A DNA stretch of 52,209 nucleotides, from NCBI RefSeq assembly GCF_000735355.1, contig NZ_JMPI01000032.1, positions 1 through 52,209 of the forward strand, read 5' to 3'. This document shows, one piece after another, positions 8,798 to 18,963 of this stretch. The position numbers and the translations under genes were made by a program. This stretch comes from Buttiauxella agrestis ATCC 33320 (GTDB taxonomy: Bacteria; Pseudomonadota; Gammaproteobacteria; Enterobacterales; Enterobacteriaceae). The notes beneath the pieces are model-generated. The model searched no databases. It was not told the DNA's origin and saw only the letters and a program-made list of their open reading frames with translations. Numbering within the stretch: the stretch's first letter is position 1; each line of letters opens with the position of its first letter.

Positions 8798-8873
8798 TCC
8801 TCTGTAGTTCAGTCGGTAGAACGGCGGACTGTTAATCCGTATGTCACTGGTTCGAGTCCAGTCAGAGGAGCCA
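8798..8873 (+). tRNA. tRNA-Asn (anticodon GTT), copy 1
   Basis: Seventy-six bases beginning TCCTCTGTAGTTCAGTCGGT and ending GAGGAGCCA fold as a standard cloverleaf with anticodon GTT and an encoded CCA. It is identical to the copies at 20953 and 39651. Its 3' end contains the 17-bp core used as an island attachment site. Confidence 0.99.
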
Positions 8874-8912: not shown

Positions 8913-9157
8913 CGTTTTTGTCGCCAGCGGTCGGCCTTCTGCCAACATGTCCCCTCACCTGAACATGAAATTCTCTCATGTTCTCTGAAATTTAATCACT
9001 TTTACTCAATCAGTGACTCTGGCATAAATATCCTACTGCAATCAGTTACAGACAATATGAAGACTACTGGTTAAGAAACCTGAAAAGAAAATTGGGTCGT
9101 GCTGCAAAAGCAAAAAATAAATTCAGGTCTTATCAGAAATTAGGATACCCAATCGCG

Positions 9158-10135
9158 ATGAATAAAGAATTTAAATTTACTATTAAAAGCATTTCTTTCG
9201 ATGAGAATTACAATCCATCCGAAAATACGCGCATCACGACCAACTTTGCTAATTTAGCCAGAGGTCATAAGCGCCAGGAGAATTTGCGCAATACCTTAAA
9301 AATGATTGACGACCGTTTCAATTCCCTGGCGCATTGGGATAATCCACAAGGCGATCGTTATGGCGTCGAACTTGAAATTATCTCCGTGGAGATGGATGTT
9401 GAAGGTAAAGGTAACACCTTCCCAGTGATTGAAATATTGAAAACGAATATTGTCGATCAGAAAACTAACGAGCGTATTGAAGGGATTGTTGGGAACAATT
9501 TTTCCTCTTACGTCCGGGATTATGACTTTAGCGTCTTGCTGTTAGAGCACAACAAGAACAATGCCGGGTTTAGCACGCCAGATAATTTTGGTGATTTGCA
9601 TGGAAACCTATTCAAGTGCTTTATTAACTCAAGCGCTTACAAAGAACGCTTTAATAAATCACCGGTGATATGCCTGAGCGTGTCCAGTAAAAACACTTAT
9701 CATCGCACTGAAAATCATCATCCGGTATTGGGTGTGGAATATCAGCAAGATGAGTCGTCCATGACCGATCACTATTTCAATAAAATGGGGTTGCAGGCTC
9801 GCTATTTTATGCCGCCAAATAGCGTTGCGCCCTTAGCCTTTTATTTTGCAGGTGATTTGACGAGCGACTACACGGATCTTGAGCTGATCGGGACTATTAG
9901 TACGATGGAGACTTTCCAAAAAATTTATCGGCCTGAGATTTACAATGCTAATTCTACCGCCGGGAAAATATATCAACCGAGCCTGAATCAACAGAATTAT
10001 TCATTAACTCAAATTGTTTATGACCGAGAAGAACGTAGCCAGTTAGCTATTGAGCAGGGAAAGTTTACAGAAGAGAACTTCATCAAACCATACCAAACTA
10101 TTCTTGAAAAATGGTCTGCTAATTACGCTCACTGA
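9158..10135 (+). CDS. mesX: MesX (DUF1852), partner of methionine synthase MesD
   Basis: A 325-residue soluble DUF1852 protein. Members of this family occur next to a short MetE-like methionine synthase, and published genetics (Acinetobacter) showed that the pair MesD-MesX makes methionine without folate methyl donors and needs oxygen; MesX is presumed to help supply the methyl group. I chose the ATG at 9158 (MNKEFKF), with AGGA 12 nt upstream; the longer frame starts with TTG at 9092 and would exceed the usual length. The next gene, mesD, begins 26 bp downstream. The biochemical role of MesX itself is unknown. Confidence 0.88.
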   Translation: MNKEFKFTIKSISFDENYNPSENTRITTNFANLARGHKRQENLRNTLKMIDDRFNSLAHWDNPQGDRYGVELEIISVEMDVEGKGNTFPVIEILKTNIVDQKTNERIEGIVGNNFSSYVRDYDFSVLLLEHNKNNAGFSTPDNFGDLHGNLFKCFINSSAYKERFNKSPVICLSVSSKNTYHRTENHHPVLGVEYQQDESSMTDHYFNKMGLQARYFMPPNSVAPLAFYFAGDLTSDYTDLELIGTISTMETFQKIYRPEIYNANSTAGKIYQPSLNQQNYSLTQIVYDREERSQLAIEQGKFTEENFIKPYQTILEKWSANYAH

Positions 10136-10161
10136 TTATTAAAAAATTAAGGCTCTTTATT

Positions 10162-11190
10162 ATGAAAATATTGTTACCCACTTCGACTGCGGGCAGTTTG
10201 CCTAAACCTTCCTGGCTTGCACAACCTGAAACGCTTTGGTCTCCATGGAAACTGCAAGGTGATGAATTAGTTGAGGGCAAACAAGATGCTCTCCGTTTGT
10301 GCATGGAAGATCAGCTGCATGCCGGGATTGATATCGTCAGCGACGGCGAGCAAACGCGTCAGCATTTTGTCACGACATTTATTGAACACCTCAGCGGCGT
10401 TGATTTTGAGAAGCGTGAGATTGTTAAAATTCGCAATCGCTATGATGCGAGTGTACCCACTGTTGTCGGGCCTGTTTCTCGCCAAAAACCTGTTTTTGTT
10501 GAAGATGCCAGATTTTTACGTCAGCAAACTAAACAACCCATTAAATGGGCGCTGCCAGGCCCAATGACAATGATCGATACGCTTTATGATAGCCATTATA
10601 AAAGCCGCGAAAAACTCGCCTGGGAATTTGCCAAAATTCTTAATCAAGAAGCCAGAGAATTAGAGGCGGCGGGTGTTGATATTATCCAGTTTGATGAACC
10701 TGCATTTAATGTATTTTTTGATGAGGTGAATGATTGGGGAATTGCTGCGTTAGAAAGAGCAGTTGAAGGGCTTAAATGTGAAACGGCCGTACATATTTGC
10801 TACGGTTACGGCATCAAAGCTAATACAGACTGGAAAAAGACGCTGGGTTCAGAATGGCGGCAATATGAGGAATTTTTCCCCAAATTGCAGGCGTCTGCCA
10901 TCGATATAATTTCACTGGAATGTCAGAACTCTCGCGTACCAATGGATCTCATTGAACTCATTCGAGGGAAAAAAGTCATGGTCGGTGCCATTGATGTGGC
11001 AACCAATATTATTGAGACACCAGAAGAAGTCGCGAATACTTTACGCAAAGCACTTCAGTTTGTAGACGCCGATAAGCTCTACCCTAGCACTAACTGCGGC
11101 ATGACTCCTTTACCTCGCCAGGTAGCACGAGGCAAGTTGAGTGCTTTAAGTGCAGGCGCAGAAATCGTCCGCAGAGAACTCTCGGCTTAA
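10162..11190 (+). CDS. mesD: Folate-independent methionine synthase MesD
   Basis: This 342-residue protein corresponds to the C-terminal catalytic half of cobalamin-independent methionine synthase (MetE) and lacks the N-terminal folate-binding half. Residues matching the MetE zinc ligands are present: H211 and C213 (HICYGY), E253 (SLECQNSR) and C312 (STNCGMTP). The substrate loop FDEPAF is near 176-181. Length and the upstream DUF1852 partner indicate the MesD family, which methylates homocysteine from an unidentified donor in an oxygen-dependent way. AAGG precedes the start. The function of the pair is known from other genera; activity here is inferred. Confidence 0.9.
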   Translation: MKILLPTSTAGSLPKPSWLAQPETLWSPWKLQGDELVEGKQDALRLCMEDQLHAGIDIVSDGEQTRQHFVTTFIEHLSGVDFEKREIVKIRNRYDASVPTVVGPVSRQKPVFVEDARFLRQQTKQPIKWALPGPMTMIDTLYDSHYKSREKLAWEFAKILNQEARELEAAGVDIIQFDEPAFNVFFDEVNDWGIAALERAVEGLKCETAVHICYGYGIKANTDWKKTLGSEWRQYEEFFPKLQASAIDIISLECQNSRVPMDLIELIRGKKVMVGAIDVATNIIETPEEVANTLRKALQFVDADKLYPSTNCGMTPLPRQVARGKLSALSAGAEIVRRELSA

Positions 11191-11263
11191 TAACGTCGCA
11201 AAATATAGTTGATTGAAAAAATAGACTTCGGTCTTTTCCTGAGCATCTGAAACTTATAAAATT

Positions 11264-11305
11264 TTGACTTAGCTCAAAACATTTTGACCGATTCAGAGCT
11301 ATTTA
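11264..11305 (+). promoter_or_regulatory. FNR-like site and -10 of ydfZ
   Basis: TTGACTTAGCTCAA (11264-11277) matches the FNR consensus TTGAT-N4-ATCAA at eight of ten positions. A -10-like TATTTA (11300-11305) places the start of transcription near 11312, so the FNR site would be centred near -41.5, the class II activator position. E. coli ydfZ is FNR-activated. Confidence 0.72.
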
Positions 11306-11355
11306 TTTGCCGTTAAATCATCTCATCTTGATACAACATAAAAGGAGGAATGATG

Positions 11356-11559
11356 ATGTTGACCTATGATTGCTACCGTAACGCTATCTCAACTGGCAGC
11401 CGTGTTATGGTTTTCAATAAGGGTCTGACTGGTGTTATTAAGGCCATTCACGGCGAAGGTAAATCAGCCGAACAAATTCGTCGTTCTCAGTGTGTTGAAA
11501 TCGAAGGTTGCGAAGGTGTGTTCTGCCCGATGGAGTTGGTTAGACTTGAACTTCACTGA
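11356..11559 (+). CDS. ydfZ: YdfZ-family small protein (putative selenium-binding)
   Basis: A 67-residue protein colinear with E. coli YdfZ (also 67), sharing the NAI-TGSRVMV, TG-I, EQIRR and VEGCE blocks. YdfZ was reported to bind selenium non-covalently; its function is otherwise unclear. Three ATG codons follow AAAGGAGG; I chose the third (11356) because it lies 7 nt after AGGAGG and gives the family length. Extra cysteines compared with E. coli are visible (near residue 6 and in the GCEGVFC segment). An FNR-like site upstream suggests anaerobic expression. Confidence 0.88.
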   Translation: MLTYDCYRNAISTGSRVMVFNKGLTGVIKAIHGEGKSAEQIRRSQCVEIEGCEGVFCPMELVRLELH

Positions 11560-11621
11560 TAGGGCATATCGATTTAGCACATTGTTATTACAAATAAAAT
11601 AACCCTGCAAACTCATTATTT

Positions 11622-11649
11622 AAGGTCACCGAATAGGTGGCCTTTTTTT
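11622..11649 (+). terminator. Terminator after ydfZ
   Basis: AAGGTCACC / GGTGGCCTT stem with a GAATA loop (one T-G pair) followed by a run of seven T's. Confidence 0.9.
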
Positions 11650-11730
11650 ATGGACTATATAGCCACGCTGACCTCCTCCCCAACAATGAATACAGGGCGG
11701 ACTTAACAACGCTTTACGATGGCCTGCAAT

Positions 11731-11773
11731 GCACAAATTGTGCGATAGACAAAGTGTACTAAAAGTCTATATT
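11731..11773 (+). promoter_or_regulatory. Palindrome and promoter of the dehydratase cluster
   Basis: A perfect palindrome GCACAA-A-TTGTGC (11731-11743) lies directly upstream of a promoter-like pair TAGACA (11746-11751), 16 nt, TATATT (11768-11773). A looser pair TAGAC / GTCTA (11746-11750, 11765-11769) overlaps the spacer. The palindrome is a likely operator for the cluster, perhaps for the regulator encoded at 13740. Sequence seen; assignment inferred. Confidence 0.55.
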
Positions 11774-11803
11774 AGATAATAAATACATTTAGAGAAGATC
11801 ACT

Positions 11804-12769
11804 ATGTCGCAGCTACTCAAACTTTTTACCGCCAGCCAGGAAGCGCATACCGCACTTCGCCCACAAGTCAGAAAAACGCCGCTCGACCGCAGCCACATGC
11901 TTTCGACGCTGTACGGGTGCGATCTGTTTCTTAAGGGTGAGCATCTGCAACACACCGGTTCGTTTAAATTCCGCGGTGCCAGCAACAAGATTCGCCTGCT
12001 GACCCCGGAACAAAAGGCGCAGGGAGTGATCACGGCTTCTTCGGGTAATCACGGGCAAGGTATGGCACTGGCGGGGGCAATGGCAGGCATTCCGGTGACT
12101 GTTTTTGTGCCAGCCACCGCTTCACCTTTGAAGATTGACGCTATTCGTGCCTACGGCGCAACGGTGAATATGATCGAAAAGGACGCCCTTAGCGTCGAAC
12201 TGGAAGCGGCAGAAACCGCGGCCCGTGAAGGGATAACCTTTGTTTCACCCTATAACGATGAAGATGTGATCGCCGGGCAAGGCACCATCGCGTTTGAAAT
12301 GTTTGAAACAGAGCCGAAACTTGATGCCGTTTTTGTGGCTGTGGGCGGTGGCGGTTTGATTTCCGGCATCGGCGCGGTAATGAAACATCTGTCACCGGAA
12401 ACCCGCATCGTGGCTTGTTGGCCTGAAGCGTCTGTGGCGATGTACGCCTCACTTCAGGCGGGTGAAATTGTGGAGCCGGAAGAGCACGATACGCTTTCAG
12501 ACGGCACGGCGGGCGGGCTGGAACCCGGCACAATCACCTTCCCACTCTGCCAGGCGGTTGTCGATGACTGTGTGCTGGTCAGCGAAGAAGAAATCAAAGC
12601 GGCGATGAAAACCCTGGCCCGTTATGAACGCTGGATGGTGGAAGGCGCGGCGGGTGTGGCAATGGCAGCCTTTATGCAGCAGGCCGAGCAATGGCGAGGC
12701 AAGCGTGTCGCGGTGGTGCTGTGCGGTAAAAATATCATCCTCGAAAAATTCACCGGAGCGGTGAAATGA
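11804..12769 (+). CDS. PLP-dependent threonine/serine dehydratase-family enzyme
   Basis: A 321-residue fold-type II PLP enzyme with the Schiff-base lysine K55 in GSFKFRGA, the SSGNHGQG substrate-carboxylate loop (about 78-85), and the glycine-rich phosphate loop VGGGGL (about 179-184). It lacks the C-terminal regulatory domain of IlvA, like catabolic threonine dehydratases, serine racemases, 3-hydroxyaspartate dehydratases and EutB of hydroxyectoine breakdown. Its start is 31 bp after the promoter-like TATATT, and its stop overlaps the next gene by 4 bp (ATGA). Together with an ornithine-cyclodeaminase homologue it probably deaminates a hydroxy-amino acid; the substrate is not readable from the sequence. 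Confidence 0.85.
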   Translation: MSQLLKLFTASQEAHTALRPQVRKTPLDRSHMLSTLYGCDLFLKGEHLQHTGSFKFRGASNKIRLLTPEQKAQGVITASSGNHGQGMALAGAMAGIPVTVFVPATASPLKIDAIRAYGATVNMIEKDALSVELEAAETAAREGITFVSPYNDEDVIAGQGTIAFEMFETEPKLDAVFVAVGGGGLISGIGAVMKHLSPETRIVACWPEASVAMYASLQAGEIVEPEEHDTLSDGTAGGLEPGTITFPLCQAVVDDCVLVSEEEIKAAMKTLARYERWMVEGAAGVAMAAFMQQAEQWRGKRVAVVLCGKNIILEKFTGAVK

Positions 12770-13710
12770 AGGTTATCGGCCTTGAAGAAATCAAAACGCT
12801 ATTTAACCAGACCGACGCGCTGACCCGACTAAAAGCCGGTTTCGAAGCGTTTTCCGCAGGTCGGGTGCAGCTTCCGCCAGCCCAGCAATTTGCCTTCTCG
12901 CAAGCCGAAGGCGACTGCTGTATCAAGTCCGCCTGGATTGAGGGCAGCGATAGTTTTTGTGTAAAAATCTCAACGGGCTTTTATAACAATCCTTCCCTGG
13001 GATTGCCCAGCAATGACGGGCTCAGTATGGTTTTCTCGGCACAAACGGGACAACCCCTGGTGCTGCTGGACGATCATGGTTGGTTGACTGGCGTACGCAC
13101 CGCGCTGGCAGGACGCATTGCCGCGGAAATGCTGCTTCCTGAGCGTATAGAGCGAATTGCTATCTTCGGCACAGGATTACAGGCAAAGCTTCAGCTGCGA
13201 CAGTTACTTGAGCTAACCCCTTGCCGTGACGTGATTGTCTGGGGACGTAGCGAGGCATCGTTGGCCCGTTTCCGCGAGCAAGTTTCCGATATTGATATTC
13301 AGCTTATTACAACGACCAGCGAGCAGCAGGCTGCAAGCGGCGCTACGGTTATCGTCACGGCCACGCCATCAACCGTTCCGTTGGTGCTTGCCGAGTGGGT
13401 TCAGCCCGGAACACATATCACCGCCGTGGGTGCCGATAGCCCAGGCAAGCAGGAGCTTGACGCAAAACTGGTAGCGAAAGCGGATTGTATTGTGGCTGAT
13501 TCGCTCAAGCAGTGCGGGGCTTACGGTGAGTTAAGCCGCTTATCGGCTGACCTTCGTGAGAGCAAAAAGGTGATTGAGCTGGGGTGTTTACTGGCAGACC
13601 GTTCGCAATATGTGCGTAGCGAAACTGATATTACCCTTGTCGATCTAACCGGGCTGGGCGTGCAGGATGCGCAGATTTCGGCCAGTATTCTGGCGCAGTT
13701 AAAAGTGTAA
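12766..13710 (+). CDS. Ornithine cyclodeaminase / mu-crystallin family protein
   Basis: A 314-residue NAD(P)-dependent protein of the ornithine cyclodeaminase/mu-crystallin superfamily. It has the substrate-domain stretch CIKSAW, the TGVRTALAG segment (about 105-112), and a Rossmann motif IFGTGLQA (about 130-137) followed by the family's VGADSPGKQEL segment. Relatives include ornithine cyclodeaminase, ketimine reductases, alanine dehydrogenase, EutC and DauB. It overlaps the dehydratase gene by 4 bp, so the two are translated together. It may reduce or cyclise the keto/imino product of the first enzyme; this is inference. Confidence 0.87.
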   Translation: MKVIGLEEIKTLFNQTDALTRLKAGFEAFSAGRVQLPPAQQFAFSQAEGDCCIKSAWIEGSDSFCVKISTGFYNNPSLGLPSNDGLSMVFSAQTGQPLVLLDDHGWLTGVRTALAGRIAAEMLLPERIERIAIFGTGLQAKLQLRQLLELTPCRDVIVWGRSEASLARFREQVSDIDIQLITTTSEQQAASGATVIVTATPSTVPLVLAEWVQPGTHITAVGADSPGKQELDAKLVAKADCIVADSLKQCGAYGELSRLSADLRESKKVIELGCLLADRSQYVRSETDITLVDLTGLGVQDAQISASILAQLKV

Positions 13711-13739
13711 AACGGTTACCAGGCGGAAGGAATCAAAGT

Positions 13740-14366
13740 TTGAACGAAAATATAAGCCTTAAAGATGAGCAGTTTGCCACGCTAAAAGCGATGGCAGAAG
13801 GAATCGCAGCGCTGTTTTTCCCGGTGGTAGAAGTCGCTATACACAACGTTAAAAGCGGCAAAATTGCCTGGCTTGCTAATAATATCTCTAAACGCAGCAT
13901 CGGGGATGATGCCGGGCTTGAGGAGCTGTCGCTTCACGACCTTGAAAGCATGACCGGGCCTTACGAAAAACTGAACTGGGATGGTAAAAAAGTCCGCTCA
14001 GTCAGTATCCGCGCAAACGTAGAAGGTGAAACCGAATATATTTTTTGCATCAACTTCAGCACTTCGCTGTTAGAGGATGCCAAAAATGCCCTCGAGATGT
14101 TCCTTTCTGTTAACCGTTTGCAGCCACAGCCCGTCCAGCTTTTTAAACATGACTGGCAGGAAAAAATTAATACTTTTCTTCATCAGTGGCTGAATGAAAA
14201 TAATACGTCGCTTTCCACACTCTCTCGCCAGCAGAAAAAGGAACTGGTGACGGAGCTGTATCGCCAGGGTGCATTCACCGTCAGAAACTCCGCAGACTAT
14301 ATTGCTAACGTGCTCTCTATGGGGCGCGCGACTGTTTATAAGCACCTCAAGGAAATCAAAAACTGA
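13740..14366 (+). CDS. YheO/DauR-like PAS-HTH transcriptional regulator
   Basis: A 208-residue regulator with an N-terminal YheO-like PAS domain (about 8-120; VEVAIHNVKSGKIAWLANN) and a C-terminal HTH (about 160-205; GAFTVRNSADYIANVLSMGR). This layout is that of DauR, which controls D-arginine use together with an ornithine-cyclodeaminase-like enzyme in Pseudomonas. It starts at TTG with AAGGAA 7 nt upstream, 30 bp after the previous gene, so it is the third gene of the operon and probably its regulator. The ligand is unknown. Confidence 0.85.
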   Translation: MNENISLKDEQFATLKAMAEGIAALFFPVVEVAIHNVKSGKIAWLANNISKRSIGDDAGLEELSLHDLESMTGPYEKLNWDGKKVRSVSIRANVEGETEYIFCINFSTSLLEDAKNALEMFLSVNRLQPQPVQLFKHDWQEKINTFLHQWLNENNTSLSTLSRQQKKELVTELYRQGAFTVRNSADYIANVLSMGRATVYKHLKEIKN

Positions 14367-14455
14367 AAATGTCCTTTGAACTATCGTAGGCGTGGTGACT
14401 CAGTGAGTCGTTGTATCAATTTAGTATTCAATTTCAGACCATTAAGGAAGCAGGC

Positions 14456-14839
14456 ATGTCGCAGAATACTGAATCCAGCGCTGAGTTTTATGTGCAGACA
14501 CTCGGTCTGCCGCTAAAGCCAATGGAGGGGAACTGCGATTACCTGCTGTCGGAAAAAGACCTGCTGAAGGGCGTGAAGCATTTTGCCGTCTGGCCACTAT
14601 CACAGGCAGAAAATTCATGTTTTGGTGTTGGGCAGTGGCCAACTGAACACCCGATACCACAGGGATGGATTGAATACGAGGTAGAGGATCTCGATTCTGC
14701 TACCCGCATATTGAGTGAGAAGGGTTATCGCCTGTTGGTGGCTAACCGCATAGAGCCGTGGGGGCAAACCGTCACGCGCCTGCTCAGCCCCGAAGGGTTG
14801 CTTACCGGACTGACAATTACCCCCTGGCTTCGTGGGTAA
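14456..14839 (+). CDS. VOC (glyoxalase/bleomycin-resistance fold) protein
   Basis: A 127-residue VOC-fold protein with the usual opening FYVQTLGLPLK and the closing LLSPEGLLTGLTITPW. The first typical metal position carries no clear His or Glu, so metal binding is uncertain. ATG at 14456 follows AAGGAAG by 7-8 nt; a longer frame from TTG is less likely. It follows the regulator at 89 bp, but linkage to that operon is not certain. Catalytic function unknown. Confidence 0.8.
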   Translation: MSQNTESSAEFYVQTLGLPLKPMEGNCDYLLSEKDLLKGVKHFAVWPLSQAENSCFGVGQWPTEHPIPQGWIEYEVEDLDSATRILSEKGYRLLVANRIEPWGQTVTRLLSPEGLLTGLTITPWLRG

Positions 14840-14843
14840 ATAA

Positions 14844-14911
14844 TGACCGCTCCTGCACGAAGCGGTCAGGTTGAAGGGCCTTATTGTCTGCGGTGAGCGA
14901 GGAGCGGAAAT
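14844..14911. repeat. Dispersed repeat copy: TGACCGCT...AGCGGTCA and GAGCGAGGAGCGGA
   Basis: TGACCGCT (14844-14851) and AGCGGTCA (14861-14868) form perfect 8-bp arms around CTGCACGA, followed by GTGAGCGAGGAGCGGAA (about 14895-14911). Related copies occur at 1733, 16372, 46992, 47034, 47639 and 51786. See the finding on the repeat family. Confidence 0.65.
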
Positions 14912-15079
14912 TCACGATTGGTTCCATTGCTCATTAAGGCTTTACAAGCATCGCTGTAGGTTAGTGAGCCGGGAGCAGATCAAAGCTTTACGGGGGCCGT
15001 CCAGGGCAGTTTTTACTTTGAACGCCAAGACCACCGAATGGTGGCCTCAGTTATTTCAACGGGAGTTATAATAATAAAA

Positions 15080-16138
15080 CTATTGATTACTTGCAGCGAA
15101 AGTACGAACTAATTGTGAAGCTTTTTCCTCTGACATAAAATGGGAATAAAATTCCCTCAGATGTTCAGCCTCTTCCTCGTCTTCATCGCCTACTACAGCC
15201 CAATTTAGAGATTCTTTTCTACTTAATCCCTCAAAGTCATTAATTAGCATAACATCACGAAGGAAACCATATATGTTATTTTCTGGGGAGTGTACCTTAC
15301 ATACCTCGACGTAATTATCGGGGATTGAATCTGCAATTGATTTAAAGTTGTCAAGTCCAGTAAATTCTAATTCCTCTATAATATCTCTAGTGGTTGAACC
15401 ACCCCAATCCTTTACAGGAACCAAATCCAAACCTATTTTTTTGCTAATTTCTTGTACAAATTTTGAAAGATTGATGGAGTTTATTTCTTGAGATAATAGT
15501 GCCTCCAAGTCATTATCTTTTATGGATTCTTTATATTCGTCAATGGCGTTAACAATCTCAGAGAAACCTTCATCCGCAATTTCAAGCATACCGGAGTATA
15601 AATTGATTTTTCTTTGGATCTGTAATGGTAAGTTTGCACCAAGTTTGTAATTACGATCATGCGTTAATTCTGCCCAAGCGTGCTGCAACATAGTTCTGAC
15701 TTGAATTTCGCAGTTCAAGCCTGAGATATACTCATACTCTTTCAGAGCGTTTCTTTTTTCACCAATGTCGCAAACATAATGCACAGATCTATATCCTACT
15801 TTATCAGAGGATAGCCTGCCTTCATTGTCCATGCTATTCTTAACGTCAATATTGAATGTGGACTTGATCACATCACTAACTCTAGTTATATCAGACTCTA
15901 GGTATAATATTATCCTTACACCTGAAATATCTGTTAACTCATCAGTTGGGTTTTTATATTTTTTCCTACCAATTTTCTCCAGTATACCTTCCTTCGTTTT
16001 AGTTCTATAACTAACAGAAAGATAGTCCACTTGATTTTGTTGAAGGAGGTTCTCAATTATAAAAGCTATATGCTTTCCTAAGAGTTCAAACTTGGGTAAG
16101 TTTTCATCGACCCATGAATTAATGCTTTGTTCTTTCAT
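15080..16138 (-). CDS. Stand-alone RelA/SpoT-domain nucleotide pyrophosphokinase with extra C-terminal domain
   Basis: A 352-residue protein whose residues about 20-170 form a RelA/SpoT synthetase domain: basic ATP-site residues R45, K47 and K49, D70 and R75 (DISGVRII), Y116 and H120 (VGYRSVHY), and the catalytic block with E144, Q146, R148 and H153 (CEIQVRTMLQHAWAEL). There is no HD hydrolase, TGS or ACT domain, so it is a small-alarmone-synthetase-like protein. The EIQVRT-LQHAWAE wording is typical of the toxic/defence-linked subgroup (toxSAS, CapRel-like). The C-terminal ~150 residues are acidic and I do not recognise them; they could be a sensor or a fused antitoxin. The gene is clearly more AT-rich than its neighbours and stands alone on the minus strand, which suggests transfer. 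A housekeeping role cannot be excluded. Confidence 0.85.
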   Translation of the reverse strand: MKEQSINSWVDENLPKFELLGKHIAFIIENLLQQNQVDYLSVSYRTKTKEGILEKIGRKKYKNPTDELTDISGVRIILYLESDITRVSDVIKSTFNIDVKNSMDNEGRLSSDKVGYRSVHYVCDIGEKRNALKEYEYISGLNCEIQVRTMLQHAWAELTHDRNYKLGANLPLQIQRKINLYSGMLEIADEGFSEIVNAIDEYKESIKDNDLEALLSQEINSINLSKFVQEISKKIGLDLVPVKDWGGSTTRDIIEELEFTGLDNFKSIADSIPDNYVEVCKVHSPENNIYGFLRDVMLINDFEGLSRKESLNWAVVGDEDEEEAEHLREFYSHFMSEEKASQLVRTFAASNQ

Positions 16139-16485
16139 ACACCCTCGCTTAATTGCGGCTTCCCTATTACAAATTGAAGATAAAATAAATCATAAACAAT
16201 TCAATTTCTGTCTTAAAATTTTACTTAAAAGAACACTTATGTAAGAAAAATTCAACCGCTAATTTTAATAGTTCTGACCTGCTCCCCGTTAATCAACAAA
16301 AACTGATATCAGCAACGTCCCCCTTGATTAAGGATAGCGTTGCATCGACCCCTTGAACTCACAGCACATAGCGGACTGGTTGGGTGGTCATCAGGTCAGC
16401 TATGAGCGAGGAGCGAGGAGCGAGGAGCGGACATGCTATTCATAGTGGAATCCGCTTCGGTAATAGCTCAATGGTTTTGAAAACC
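16139..16485. other. Gene-free spacer with GAGCGAG tandem repeat and relic repeat
   Basis: No gene is visible. It contains an AT-rich half next to the RelA/SpoT gene, AGCGGACTGG at 16371-16380, and four tandem 7-bp units GAGCGAG, GAGCGAG, GAGCGAG, GAGCGGA (16404-16431). The latter belong to the dispersed repeat family described in the findings. The promoter of the RelA/SpoT gene must lie here on the minus strand, but I cannot point to one convincing -10/-35 pair. Confidence 0.6.
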
Positions 16486-17274
16486 TCAAAGCATTTTTAC
16501 AGTGTTATCTAGCCAGGCAGGAAGATTTTCTCTGTACCAGTTGAGATAGAATTGAAAATCACTTTTCTGCCTTTCATTAAGCAATACGACTACCTCGGTA
16601 ACAATCCATGCTTTAGCAATCGCAATTTCTTTAGCTAAGTCACCTGGATTATATTGACGAGATATACAGTTATAGCGTTCAGCAAACTCAATAAATTTTT
16701 GTTTAGAACCCATTCCCTTTATCAGTGGAGCGAGATCAATAGCTGGGCTACCCATGCTGAATCTCTCCCAGTCAAAAAGCACTAAATCACCGTTATCCCT
16801 TTTCCCCCAATTACCCGCATTACTATCGCCTGAAATTAAGCACTGCCCGCTAAAAAGAGCATCACTTTCCTGCTGAAAATACCGTAACTGTTTTGCTGCT
16901 CTATCCGGTAATGCCAACAATATGAGAGATTTTTCGAGGGCTGTTTCTGACCAGGTGTGATTATGATAAACCCATGAAGGGTCAGGCCGATGGGAATGTA
17001 AGCGAGACAGAATTGACAACACTTCATCTCGTCCAACCGCATCCTGATCAACCTGGTGCGGGATATATTCCAGTCTTAACTTGCGCAAGGATGGTTCGGC
17101 TAACAACAACTTTGGGGTGAAAATGTCTGCCTGAGCGAGATCCCGAGCTGCATATTGATAAAAGTTGTACTCCACATCACTGACAGGAAACTTCTCGATT
17201 ACCTGATGATTTGTTTCATCCACAAAAAGTGTCACTTTAGCGGAACCCATGCAGGATAAATTATCAACAGACAT
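16486..17274 (-). CDS. APH-fold phosphotransferase (aminoglycoside/choline kinase-like)
   Basis: A 262-residue kinase-fold protein with a catalytic loop SGDSNAGNWG (D150, N155) and a metal-binding DWE (168-170) in LFDWERFSMGSPAIDLA, the signature of the aminoglycoside phosphotransferase/choline-kinase family. The usual HGD is SGD here. AAAGGA precedes the start. Substrate cannot be told: antibiotic, sugar, choline or a small metabolite are all possible; it does not read like a known clinical aminoglycoside resistance enzyme. It lies 347 bp from the RelA/SpoT-domain gene on the same strand and 228 bp from divergent amn. Confidence 0.82.
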   Translation of the reverse strand: MSVDNLSCMGSAKVTLFVDETNHQVIEKFPVSDVEYNFYQYAARDLAQADIFTPKLLLAEPSLRKLRLEYIPHQVDQDAVGRDEVLSILSRLHSHRPDPSWVYHNHTWSETALEKSLILLALPDRAAKQLRYFQQESDALFSGQCLISGDSNAGNWGKRDNGDLVLFDWERFSMGSPAIDLAPLIKGMGSKQKFIEFAERYNCISRQYNPGDLAKEIAIAKAWIVTEVVVLLNERQKSDFQFYLNWYRENLPAWLDNTVKML

Positions 17275-17502
17275 GCATATTTCCTTTAGCTTTGATCGGT
17301 TGGTTAATTCGGAGGCGTTTGAGTTTAGCGTAGACTGAAATCCTTACGATAAGACGCTCTCCCTATCGCTTATCCGAGCTGGGAAGAGGTTTGTTAGCAG
17401 GCTTCTTGTTTTCTCCTCCTGCCCCTTCCGTTGACGCCCGCCGATGACATACTATCGAAGCTGCAAACAGCCCTGTAAAAATCAGCAGGATGAGGAGAGA
17501 AG

Positions 17503-18963
17503 ATGACGCATCAGACAGCCGCTACGGCCCTTACCCCGAACCAGGCCCTCGATAAATTAGAGGAGCTGTACGATGCCTCGGTCAACGCACTGCGCGACGC
17601 TATTGGCCAGTATGTTGAAAACGGCGCACTACCTGAATTTGAAAAACGCGCCGCAGGATTATTTGTTTACCCGGAACTGCGCGTCAGTTGGGATGGCACC
17701 GTTAAGCATCCGAATAAAACTCGCGCTTATGCTCGTTTCACCCATTCCGGCAGTTACACCACCACCATCACCCGCCCGGCACTTTTCCGCCACTATCTCG
17801 CCGAACAATTAACGCTACTTTACGAAGATTACGGCGCGCAGATTGAAGTGGGTTTATCGCAACATGAAATCCCTTATCCGTATGTGATTGATGGCTCCAG
17901 TTTGTCGCTGGACCGTTCAATGAGTGCCGGTTTACCACGCCATTTCCCGACTACCGAACTGGCGCAAATTGGGGATGAAACGGCGGACGGCCTGTTCCAT
18001 CCCACCGAGTTTTACCCGCTTTCACACTTCGACGCCCGTCGCGTTGATTTCTCGCTCGCCCGCCTGCGCCACTACACCGGCACGCCGGTTGAGCACTTCC
18101 AGTCTTTTGTCCTGTTCACCAACTACACCCGTTATGTGGACGAGTTTGTGCGCTGGGGTTGCCAGCAGATCCTTGACCCGGAAAGCCCATACGTTGCGCT
18201 TTCCTGCGCAGGCGGCGTGTGGCTAACCGCCGACAGCCAGGCTCCCGAAGAAGCCATTTCCGATCTCGCCTGGAAGAAACACCAGATGCCCGCCTGGCAC
18301 TTGATTGATGCCAACGGTAACGGCATCACGCTGATTAACATTGGTGTTGGCCCATCAAACGCGAAAACTATTTGCGACCATCTGGCGGTGTTGCGCCCTG
18401 CGGCCTGGCTGATGATTGGCCACTGTGGCGGCCTGCGCGAAAGCCAGTCGATTGGCGATTACGTGCTGGCGCATGCGTACCTGCGCGACGACCATGTGCT
18501 TGATGCGGTTCTACCGCCAGATATCCCCATCCCAAGCATCGCCGAAGTGCAGCGCGCTTTGTACGACGCCACTAAACTGGTGAGCGGCATGCCGGGCGAA
18601 GAAGTGAAACAGCGGTTGCGTACCGGAACCGTCGTCACCACCGATGACCGTAACTGGGAATTGCGTTACTCCGCCTCGGCCCTGCGCTTTAACCTGAGCC
18701 GCGCCGTTGCGATTGATATGGAAAGCGCCACCATTGCCGCGCAGGGTTATCGCTTCCGCGTGCCATACGGCACCTTGCTTTGTGTTTCCGACAAACCGCT
18801 GCACGGTGAGATCAAACTCCCTGGCCAGGCAAATCGCTTCTATGAAGGTGCTATTTCTGAGCATTTGCAAATCGGCATCTGCGCTATTGATTTGCTGCGA
18901 GCGGAAGGTGAACGCCTGCACTCACGTAAACTCCGTACCTTTAACGAACCCCCATTCCGATAA
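17503..18963 (+). CDS. amn: AMP nucleosidase
   Basis: Amn hydrolyses AMP to adenine and ribose 5-phosphate and is a purine-pool regulator in the cytoplasm. The product is 486 residues (E. coli 484), with an Amn-specific N-terminal domain (about 1-180) and a C-terminal nucleoside-phosphorylase-like catalytic domain (about 270-470; GHCGGLRES and the AIDMESATIA block). A short spacing of 12 bp to the next gene suggests co-transcription. In E. coli amn also lies in the asn-tRNA region. Confidence 0.97.
   Translation: MTHQTAATALTPNQALDKLEELYDASVNALRDAIGQYVENGALPEFEKRAAGLFVYPELRVSWDGTVKHPNKTRAYARFTHSGSYTTTITRPALFRHYLAEQLTLLYEDYGAQIEVGLSQHEIPYPYVIDGSSLSLDRSMSAGLPRHFPTTELAQIGDETADGLFHPTEFYPLSHFDARRVDFSLARLRHYTGTPVEHFQSFVLFTNYTRYVDEFVRWGCQQILDPESPYVALSCAGGVWLTADSQAPEEAISDLAWKKHQMPAWHLIDANGNGITLINIGVGPSNAKTICDHLAVLRPAAWLMIGHCGGLRESQSIGDYVLAHAYLRDDHVLDAVLPPDIPIPSIAEVQRALYDATKLVSGMPGEEVKQRLRTGTVVTTDDRNWELRYSASALRFNLSRAVAIDMESATIAAQGYRFRVPYGTLLCVSDKPLHGEIKLPGQANRFYEGAISEHLQIGICAIDLLRAEGERLHSRKLRTFNEPPFR

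Follow-up and report, generated by a model that had tools for sequence, protein, structure and literature searches.

The 52,209-nucleotide stretch of DNA analyzed in this work, which comes from Buttiauxella agrestis ATCC 33320 (contig NZ_JMPI01000032.1, positions 1 to 52,209) and is hereafter called the window, contains a stand-alone RelA/SpoT-type synthetase gene at 15080..16138 on the minus strand, encoding a 352-amino acid (aa) protein with a C-terminal domain. The best explanation for this gene, to which we give a probability of about 0.45, is that it constitutes a mobile single-gene cassette, in which a RelQ/RelP-like synthetase and a predicted helical C-terminal domain would form a self-contained anti-phage switch, likely making the alarmone guanosine tetra- or pentaphosphate, (p)ppGpp. 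In such a switch, the enzyme would be kept inactive by the C-terminal domain before infection, phage infection would be the likely signal, and the released enzyme would make the predicted (p)ppGpp, which would likely slow or stop the infected cell, with growth arrest protecting the population.

The open reading frame (ORF) is intact: it starts with ATG, carries GAGG 5-8 nucleotides (nt) ahead of the start and ends with a stop codon at 15080-15082. A Pfam scan placed the RelA_SpoT domain (PF04607) at residues 45-166 (E-value 3.2e-20; 72.9 bits versus a cut-off of 27) and revealed no match to an HD hydrolase domain in the 352-aa protein. The length of the protein and the lack of HD rule out a long bifunctional RelA/SpoT homolog (RSH); two other, longer PF04607 frames of the genome (704 and 750 aa) were taken as SpoT and RelA. 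Named models match only in part (PADLOC PDC-S33 at residues 27-156, phrog_9640 at residues 8-230), and the match to NCBIfam YjbM scores under its cut-off. A search of 5.8 billion proteins yielded 581 relatives at E ≤ 1e-3, and from the best 120 of these 581, 95 proteins of at least 320 aa and with <85% mutual identity were used for alignment A1. The FaRel2 residues R64, K66, K74, R77, D90 and G-loop Y128 (PMC11782079) correspond, by motif position, to R45, K47, K55, R58, D70 and Y116 of the window protein, which are invariant across 95/95 aligned family members, as are, among further residues, R75 and E144; the position of FaRel2 Ser70 (51 in the window protein) is variable (Gly in 53/95, Ser in 34/95). 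Judging from these sequence comparisons, the protein belongs to the RelA/SpoT synthetase (SYNTH) superfamily and has intact catalytic residues, so that both the intact active site and the absence of a hydrolase domain, pointed out in a preliminary description of this DNA, are borne out.

The synthetase domain (residues 1-208; 15515..16138, minus strand) has a RelQ/RelP-like predicted fold and is closer to RelQ/RelP than to CapRel in both profile and predicted fold. Its net charge, taken over the whole part, is negative, unlike that of the basic CapRel (in tRNA-targeting toxSAS enzymes, it is the local CCA/acceptor-stem groove that is basic), and it keeps an H...YK element, which is present in the long RSH enzymes of the genome and in RelQ and missing in CapRel. 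The guanosine-type GYRSxH motif occurs in 95/95 family members and the adenosine-type GY.G.N motif in 0/95. In Apk2, a synthetase of the adenosine counterpart (p)ppApp, GxN replaces SxH at Syn3 (PMC12226406). The (p)ppApp synthetase type (Tas1, FaRel, Apk2) is not supported, as GxN is lacking at Syn3 and SxH is kept in 95/95 members. The motifs, fold and charge are in line with RelQ/RelP, which makes (p)ppGpp the most likely product predicted from sequence and model; transfer RNA (tRNA) or (p)ppApp chemistry is possible. The preliminary assignment to the toxic-synthetase type is not supported, because these features fit RelQ/RelP-like (p)ppGpp synthetases better than tRNA-modifying or (p)ppApp-making enzymes. 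RelQ (SAS1/YjbM) and RelP (SAS2/YwaC), both small alarmone synthetases (SAS), share the synthetase fold and active-site motifs with the window protein; however, they are housekeeping proteins of ~200-240 aa without a C-terminal domain, whereas the window gene is accessory and mobile, encodes 352 aa with the extra domain, and belongs to a family in which the motifs KXKXKXXR, EFVT and LAMNFWAT, given as RelQ allosteric motifs in PMC10434055, were each found in 0/95 members. A separate synthetase group is formed by the proteins of loci L010, L067 and L101, with the G-loop GYKGLH and downstream DHKIKYKK, in which the acceptor may differ.

The C-terminal domain (residues 209-352; 15083..15514, minus strand) was modelled by AlphaFold2 (AF2) as a separately folding, all-helical domain (predicted local distance difference test, pLDDT, 93.4; predicted template modelling score, pTM, 0.88). 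Structure prediction of this part had been proposed in the preliminary description, in which the C-terminal 150 residues were called unassigned; they do lack a convincing Pfam or PDB fold match in the libraries searched, but the limits are those given above (144 residues), and the synthetase part comprises residues 1-208, not 1-170. The domain has a net charge of -16 and diverges faster than the synthetase part in 4465/4465 pairs compared. Seven loci were compared, five of which are at or near saturation; against the two closest, the ratio of nonsynonymous to synonymous substitution rates (dN/dS) of the synthetase part was 0.06 and 0.14, and that of the C-terminal domain 0.19 and 0.39, which indicates that both parts are under purifying selection. 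The acidic domain is the obvious candidate for the brake and the sensor. A comparable architecture is that of DsRel/Tde-SAS of Treponema denticola, in which, as far as PMC10434055 describes it, a RelP/RelQ-like catalytic part is followed by a helical C-terminal domain that brakes ppGpp synthesis. That domain consists of tetratricopeptide repeats (TPR) and has ~180 aa, whereas 29 C-terminal domains of the window family matched 19 Pfam families at E ≤ 1, none of which is a TPR model. CTD11, known from ABC-3C effectors, was matched weakly by 3/95 full-length members (best E-value 0.0013) and by 0/29 C-terminal domains at E ≤ 1.

In its general logic, the window protein resembles CapRel: both are stand-alone, prophage-borne synthetases of ~350 aa with an in-cis C-terminal domain, encoded by one gene. 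CapRel is reported to be activated by a phage capsid protein (PMC9712102) and CapRelEbc by a complex of a phage protein and FtsZ (PMC13423816), and the C-terminal part of CapRel is described as a pseudo-zinc-finger antitoxin domain with a beta core and a YXXY motif (PMC9712102, PMC11782079). The C-terminal domain of the window protein, in contrast, is predicted as all-helical (pLDDT 93) and lacks YXXY, which is present in 19/95 relatives. Moreover, the tree assigned the window protein to a supported clade that is separate from RelQ/RelP as well as from CapRel, outside the CapRelSJ46 clade (7 rows, support 100/99). It matches PDC-S33 only at model positions 54-175 of 349, whereas the CapRel-type protein of congener locus L013 matches positions 5-341; since L013 matches both, PDC-S33 appears to be the CapRel family. 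The comparison with CapRel drawn in the preliminary description thus holds for the layout of the gene and not for the protein family. The enzyme type is that of RelQ/RelP, and the C-terminal domain is unlike either. The gene of that congener (L013:1252-2328) is its own, nearly full-length CapRel/PDC-S33-type gene.

The likeness to CapRel, i.e., one prophage-borne gene for ~350 aa with control in cis (as PMC9712102 describes it), would also be expected of a true toxic SAS (toxSAS), performing tRNA pyrophosphorylation or making (p)ppApp, in which toxin and antitoxin would be fused as in CapRel but the antitoxin domain would be another one. Such an enzyme could also carry the GYRSxH loop, which can occur in a CapRel-type protein, and its basic substrate site could be blocked by a strongly acidic C-terminal domain. 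We consider this improbable, given the non-basic synthetase part, its profile and fold, the H...YK element, the missing GxN motif and the position outside the CapRel clade.

Several observations indicate that the gene travels alone. A 1.48-kb unit (14838..16319), containing only the synthetase gene, was found by blastn to share 92% DNA identity over 1492 columns with the edge of a Proteus alimentorum prophage (L004), in which the gene lies between phage-tail-like genes (recognized by eye) and smpB. Locus L015 matches 14917-16272 at 85% identity, while L005 and L016-L021 match within the ORF, L005 and L018 also in a short upstream piece. A conserved element located ~85-120 nt upstream of the start (16222..16256, minus strand), a possible promoter or operator, is clear in five of the six aligned upstream regions (the window, L004, L015, L005 and L018, loci of different contexts) and not clear in L020; it overlaps a weak sigma-70-like match, the count of such matches in the region being not above chance. 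The element is as expected if, judging from the sequence, the gene travelled with its own control element. The gene is also bracketed by repeats of GAGCGAGGAGCG, four of which were found at ≤1 mismatch versus 0.20 expected: three overlapping copies lie on the upstream side (16404..16431, plus strand), and a GAGCGAGGAGCGGA repeat on the downstream side (14895..14908, plus strand). These repeats may be a mark of cassette-type insertion. A single further copy of GAGCGAGGAGCGGA, which is longer than GAGCGAGGAGCG, is present in the own genome (L106), before an HNH nuclease-like ORF (by eye). Beside the Proteus copy (L004:9636-12087), genes were found for a trypsin-like protease and, judged by eye, for a ComF-like phosphoribosyltransferase, along with an ORF of 184 aa that gave no matches; together they are possibly another cargo set.

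The preliminary description rightly called the gene AT-rich and solitary: it has 35.3% GC versus 50.4% across the window, and the gaps of 240 bp to a glyoxalase-like gene and 347 bp to a kinase-like gene hold only mechanical ORFs (e.g., 66 aa at 14871-15071). It is, furthermore, an accessory gene, not one that is core in all relatives, which that description had named, together with a lack of toxicity, as what would refute its reading: the gene was found in 0/11 congeners, of which only G010 gave a match, a weak one (E 1.1e-5) to a CapRel-type gene. Among 99 relatives including the own genome, 6 gave a match, and the close copy is present only in the own genome. Profile A1 matched 17/295 family genomes at E ≤ 1e-3, most of them over the synthetase part only, and, with the own genome included, 7/394 order genomes and 3/369 class genomes at E ≤ 1e-30. 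None of the 5426 Escherichia coli genomes held at least 80% of the 14800-17500 query; 606 had some match to it, and among the 20 matches listed all were short pieces at 16274-16387. Those pieces (75-92% identity) are mostly unannotated, and one of them is surrounded by broken transposase genes.

When viral contigs were scanned with a profile, 50 loci were detected, and neighborhoods were compared for 36 loci. The recurrent neighbors were an integrase (5) and a portal (4), both identified by searches, a small integrase-adjacent ORF (4) and a tail-like ORF (4, by eye). In family scans, single loci had Drt2 (L018), TIR-TM (L031), HNH_5 (L015), DUF4062 (L028), an SDH protease (L032), a C5 methylase (L026) or a trypsin-like protease (L004) as neighbors. 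Of the nine non-own matches from the order and class scans, six genome loci were examined, and four of these six adjoin a phage, insertion sequence (IS), integrase or integron-type gene, while one adjoins a TIR gene. The neighbors include Zot (L109), IS110 copies (L111), an integron-integrase fragment (L112), an OLD-like TOPRIM ATPase with DUF2971 and an integrase (L113), and TIR (L114). Because these contexts are of phage, mobile or defence type, a phage signal is likely. The distant member L112 (G539:C4), located near the integron-integrase fragment, is flanked by two copies of an ORF of 127 aa in a cassette-array-like arrangement, around which no repeats of at least 25 bases were found.

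No conserved partner or antitoxin gene was found within 2.5 kb across the 36 loci, 7 of which had <500 bases upstream of the match. Any control would thus be exerted in cis, as no antitoxin gene travels with the synthetase gene, and the lack of a conserved adjacent gene in these 36 neighborhoods speaks against a bicistronic toxSAS toxin-antitoxin system. This distinguishes the family from PhRel/ATphRel of mycobacteriophage Phrann, a prophage-encoded RSH enzyme said in PMC9712102 to inhibit superinfection, in which the toxin has a separate antitoxin. The mobile contexts would also suit an addiction cassette stabilizing prophages or islands; this is very unlikely, as a separate antitoxin gene is missing from every neighbor cluster, and a toxin and antitoxin fused in one protein do not show differential decay.

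The immediate neighbors of the gene in the window look metabolic. Together with the RelQ/RelP-like enzyme, they would fit an alarmone synthetase that functions in lysogeny, stress tolerance or growth rate, as part of the physiology of the prophage or the host, and not in defence, with the C-terminal domain sensing a metabolic signal; one SAS, for which the available part of PMC10434055 describes no defence role, has a regulatory C-terminal brake. This explanation is unlikely in light of the rarity of the gene in the genus, order and class, its exchange as a one-gene unit, the known or candidate defence genes adjoining several relatives, and the fast divergence of the C-terminal domain. The preliminary proposal of a defence gene gains support from the contexts of the relatives, which are typical of such genes; the immediate neighborhood of the gene in the window does not look like a defence island.

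It should be stressed that the metabolic-looking neighborhood is one of several points that weigh against a (p)ppGpp-based anti-phage switch. GYRSxH is also present in the CapRel-type protein of L013, and a (p)ppApp maker did not become a (p)ppGpp maker when its Syn motifs were exchanged (PMC12226406); the motifs are therefore no proof of the product. The viral-contig loci were fetched because they are viral, which biases the share of prophages, and neighbors for family scans were picked by eye, so no rate follows from them. PADLOC matched 4 of the 9 neighbors submitted to it, one being a general methylase and one a generic protease match, and L110, at a contig end, has only acetyltransferase-type neighbors. 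The gene was present over at least 80% of its length in 0/16 phage and 0/38 plasmid matching records. Accessory domains commonly diverge faster, and this is no proof of sensing. Other fusions or free copies of the C-terminal domain may exist, given the limited reach of the searches (exact 5-residue words; one was confined to proteins of 79-252 aa). (p)ppGpp is usually regarded as bacteriostatic, and protection might therefore be weak. PMC12814882, which presents (p)ppGpp as a defence determinant against a Pseudomonas putida phage, also reports opposite effects on different phages.

A broader proposal, which we put forward as doubtful, is that the members of the family are immune receptors made of one protein. 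On recognition of a phage, their new helical sensor domain would unleash the ordinary stringent-response alarmone (p)ppGpp, and neither (p)ppApp nor damage to tRNA; the receptors would have spread among prophages, integron-like arrays and islands in the form of a single-gene cassette. In CapRel, a fused RSH enzyme is reported to sense phage proteins directly, with an effector that damages tRNA; if the proposal is true, phages can also trigger genuine (p)ppGpp synthesis as immunity, through a mobile RelQ/RelP-like family, and alarmone protection against phage becomes directly testable with one gene. The family is large (581 proteins, as above), its C-terminal domain has no convincing library match, and no description of a RelQ/RelP-like synthetase fused to a helical C-terminal domain was found in the open-licence literature searched. 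As the PADLOC match to a CapRel-type model is partial, such tools would miss or mislabel the window protein.

The gene lies within a tRNA-Asn-associated genomic island of ~8.5 kb (8919..17395), at the left edge of which lies a tRNA-Asn (gtt) gene identified by ARAGORN (8798..8873, plus strand). In congener loci L083, L087, L088 and L089, the blastn matches running up to ~8918 adjoin those that begin at 17396, which defines ~8919-17395 as an island beside tRNA-Asn; since the matches overlap by ~18 bases and the sequences at the two sides of the island look alike there, the junction can be placed only to within about 20 bases. Island DNA at 13740-14839 was found in 1/12 genomes, the own one, and in no congener, whereas the gene to the right of the island (17503-18963), which we take to be amn, is present in 12/12. 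Four other island genes were scanned (MesX, YheO-type regulator, glyoxalase-like and APH-like), the remaining ones look metabolic by eye, and no integrase was noticed among them. The island genes include one for a MesX-family putative oxygenase (9092-10135), a YheO-like regulator gene and a glyoxalase-like gene, as well as, named by eye, a methionine-synthase-like gene (10162-11190) and pyridoxal phosphate (PLP) dehydratase-like and ornithine-cyclodeaminase-like genes. Beyond the transferred unit, the gene at 16486-17274 (minus strand) encodes an APH/ThiK-like small-molecule kinase, with the Pfam APH match just under the cut-off.
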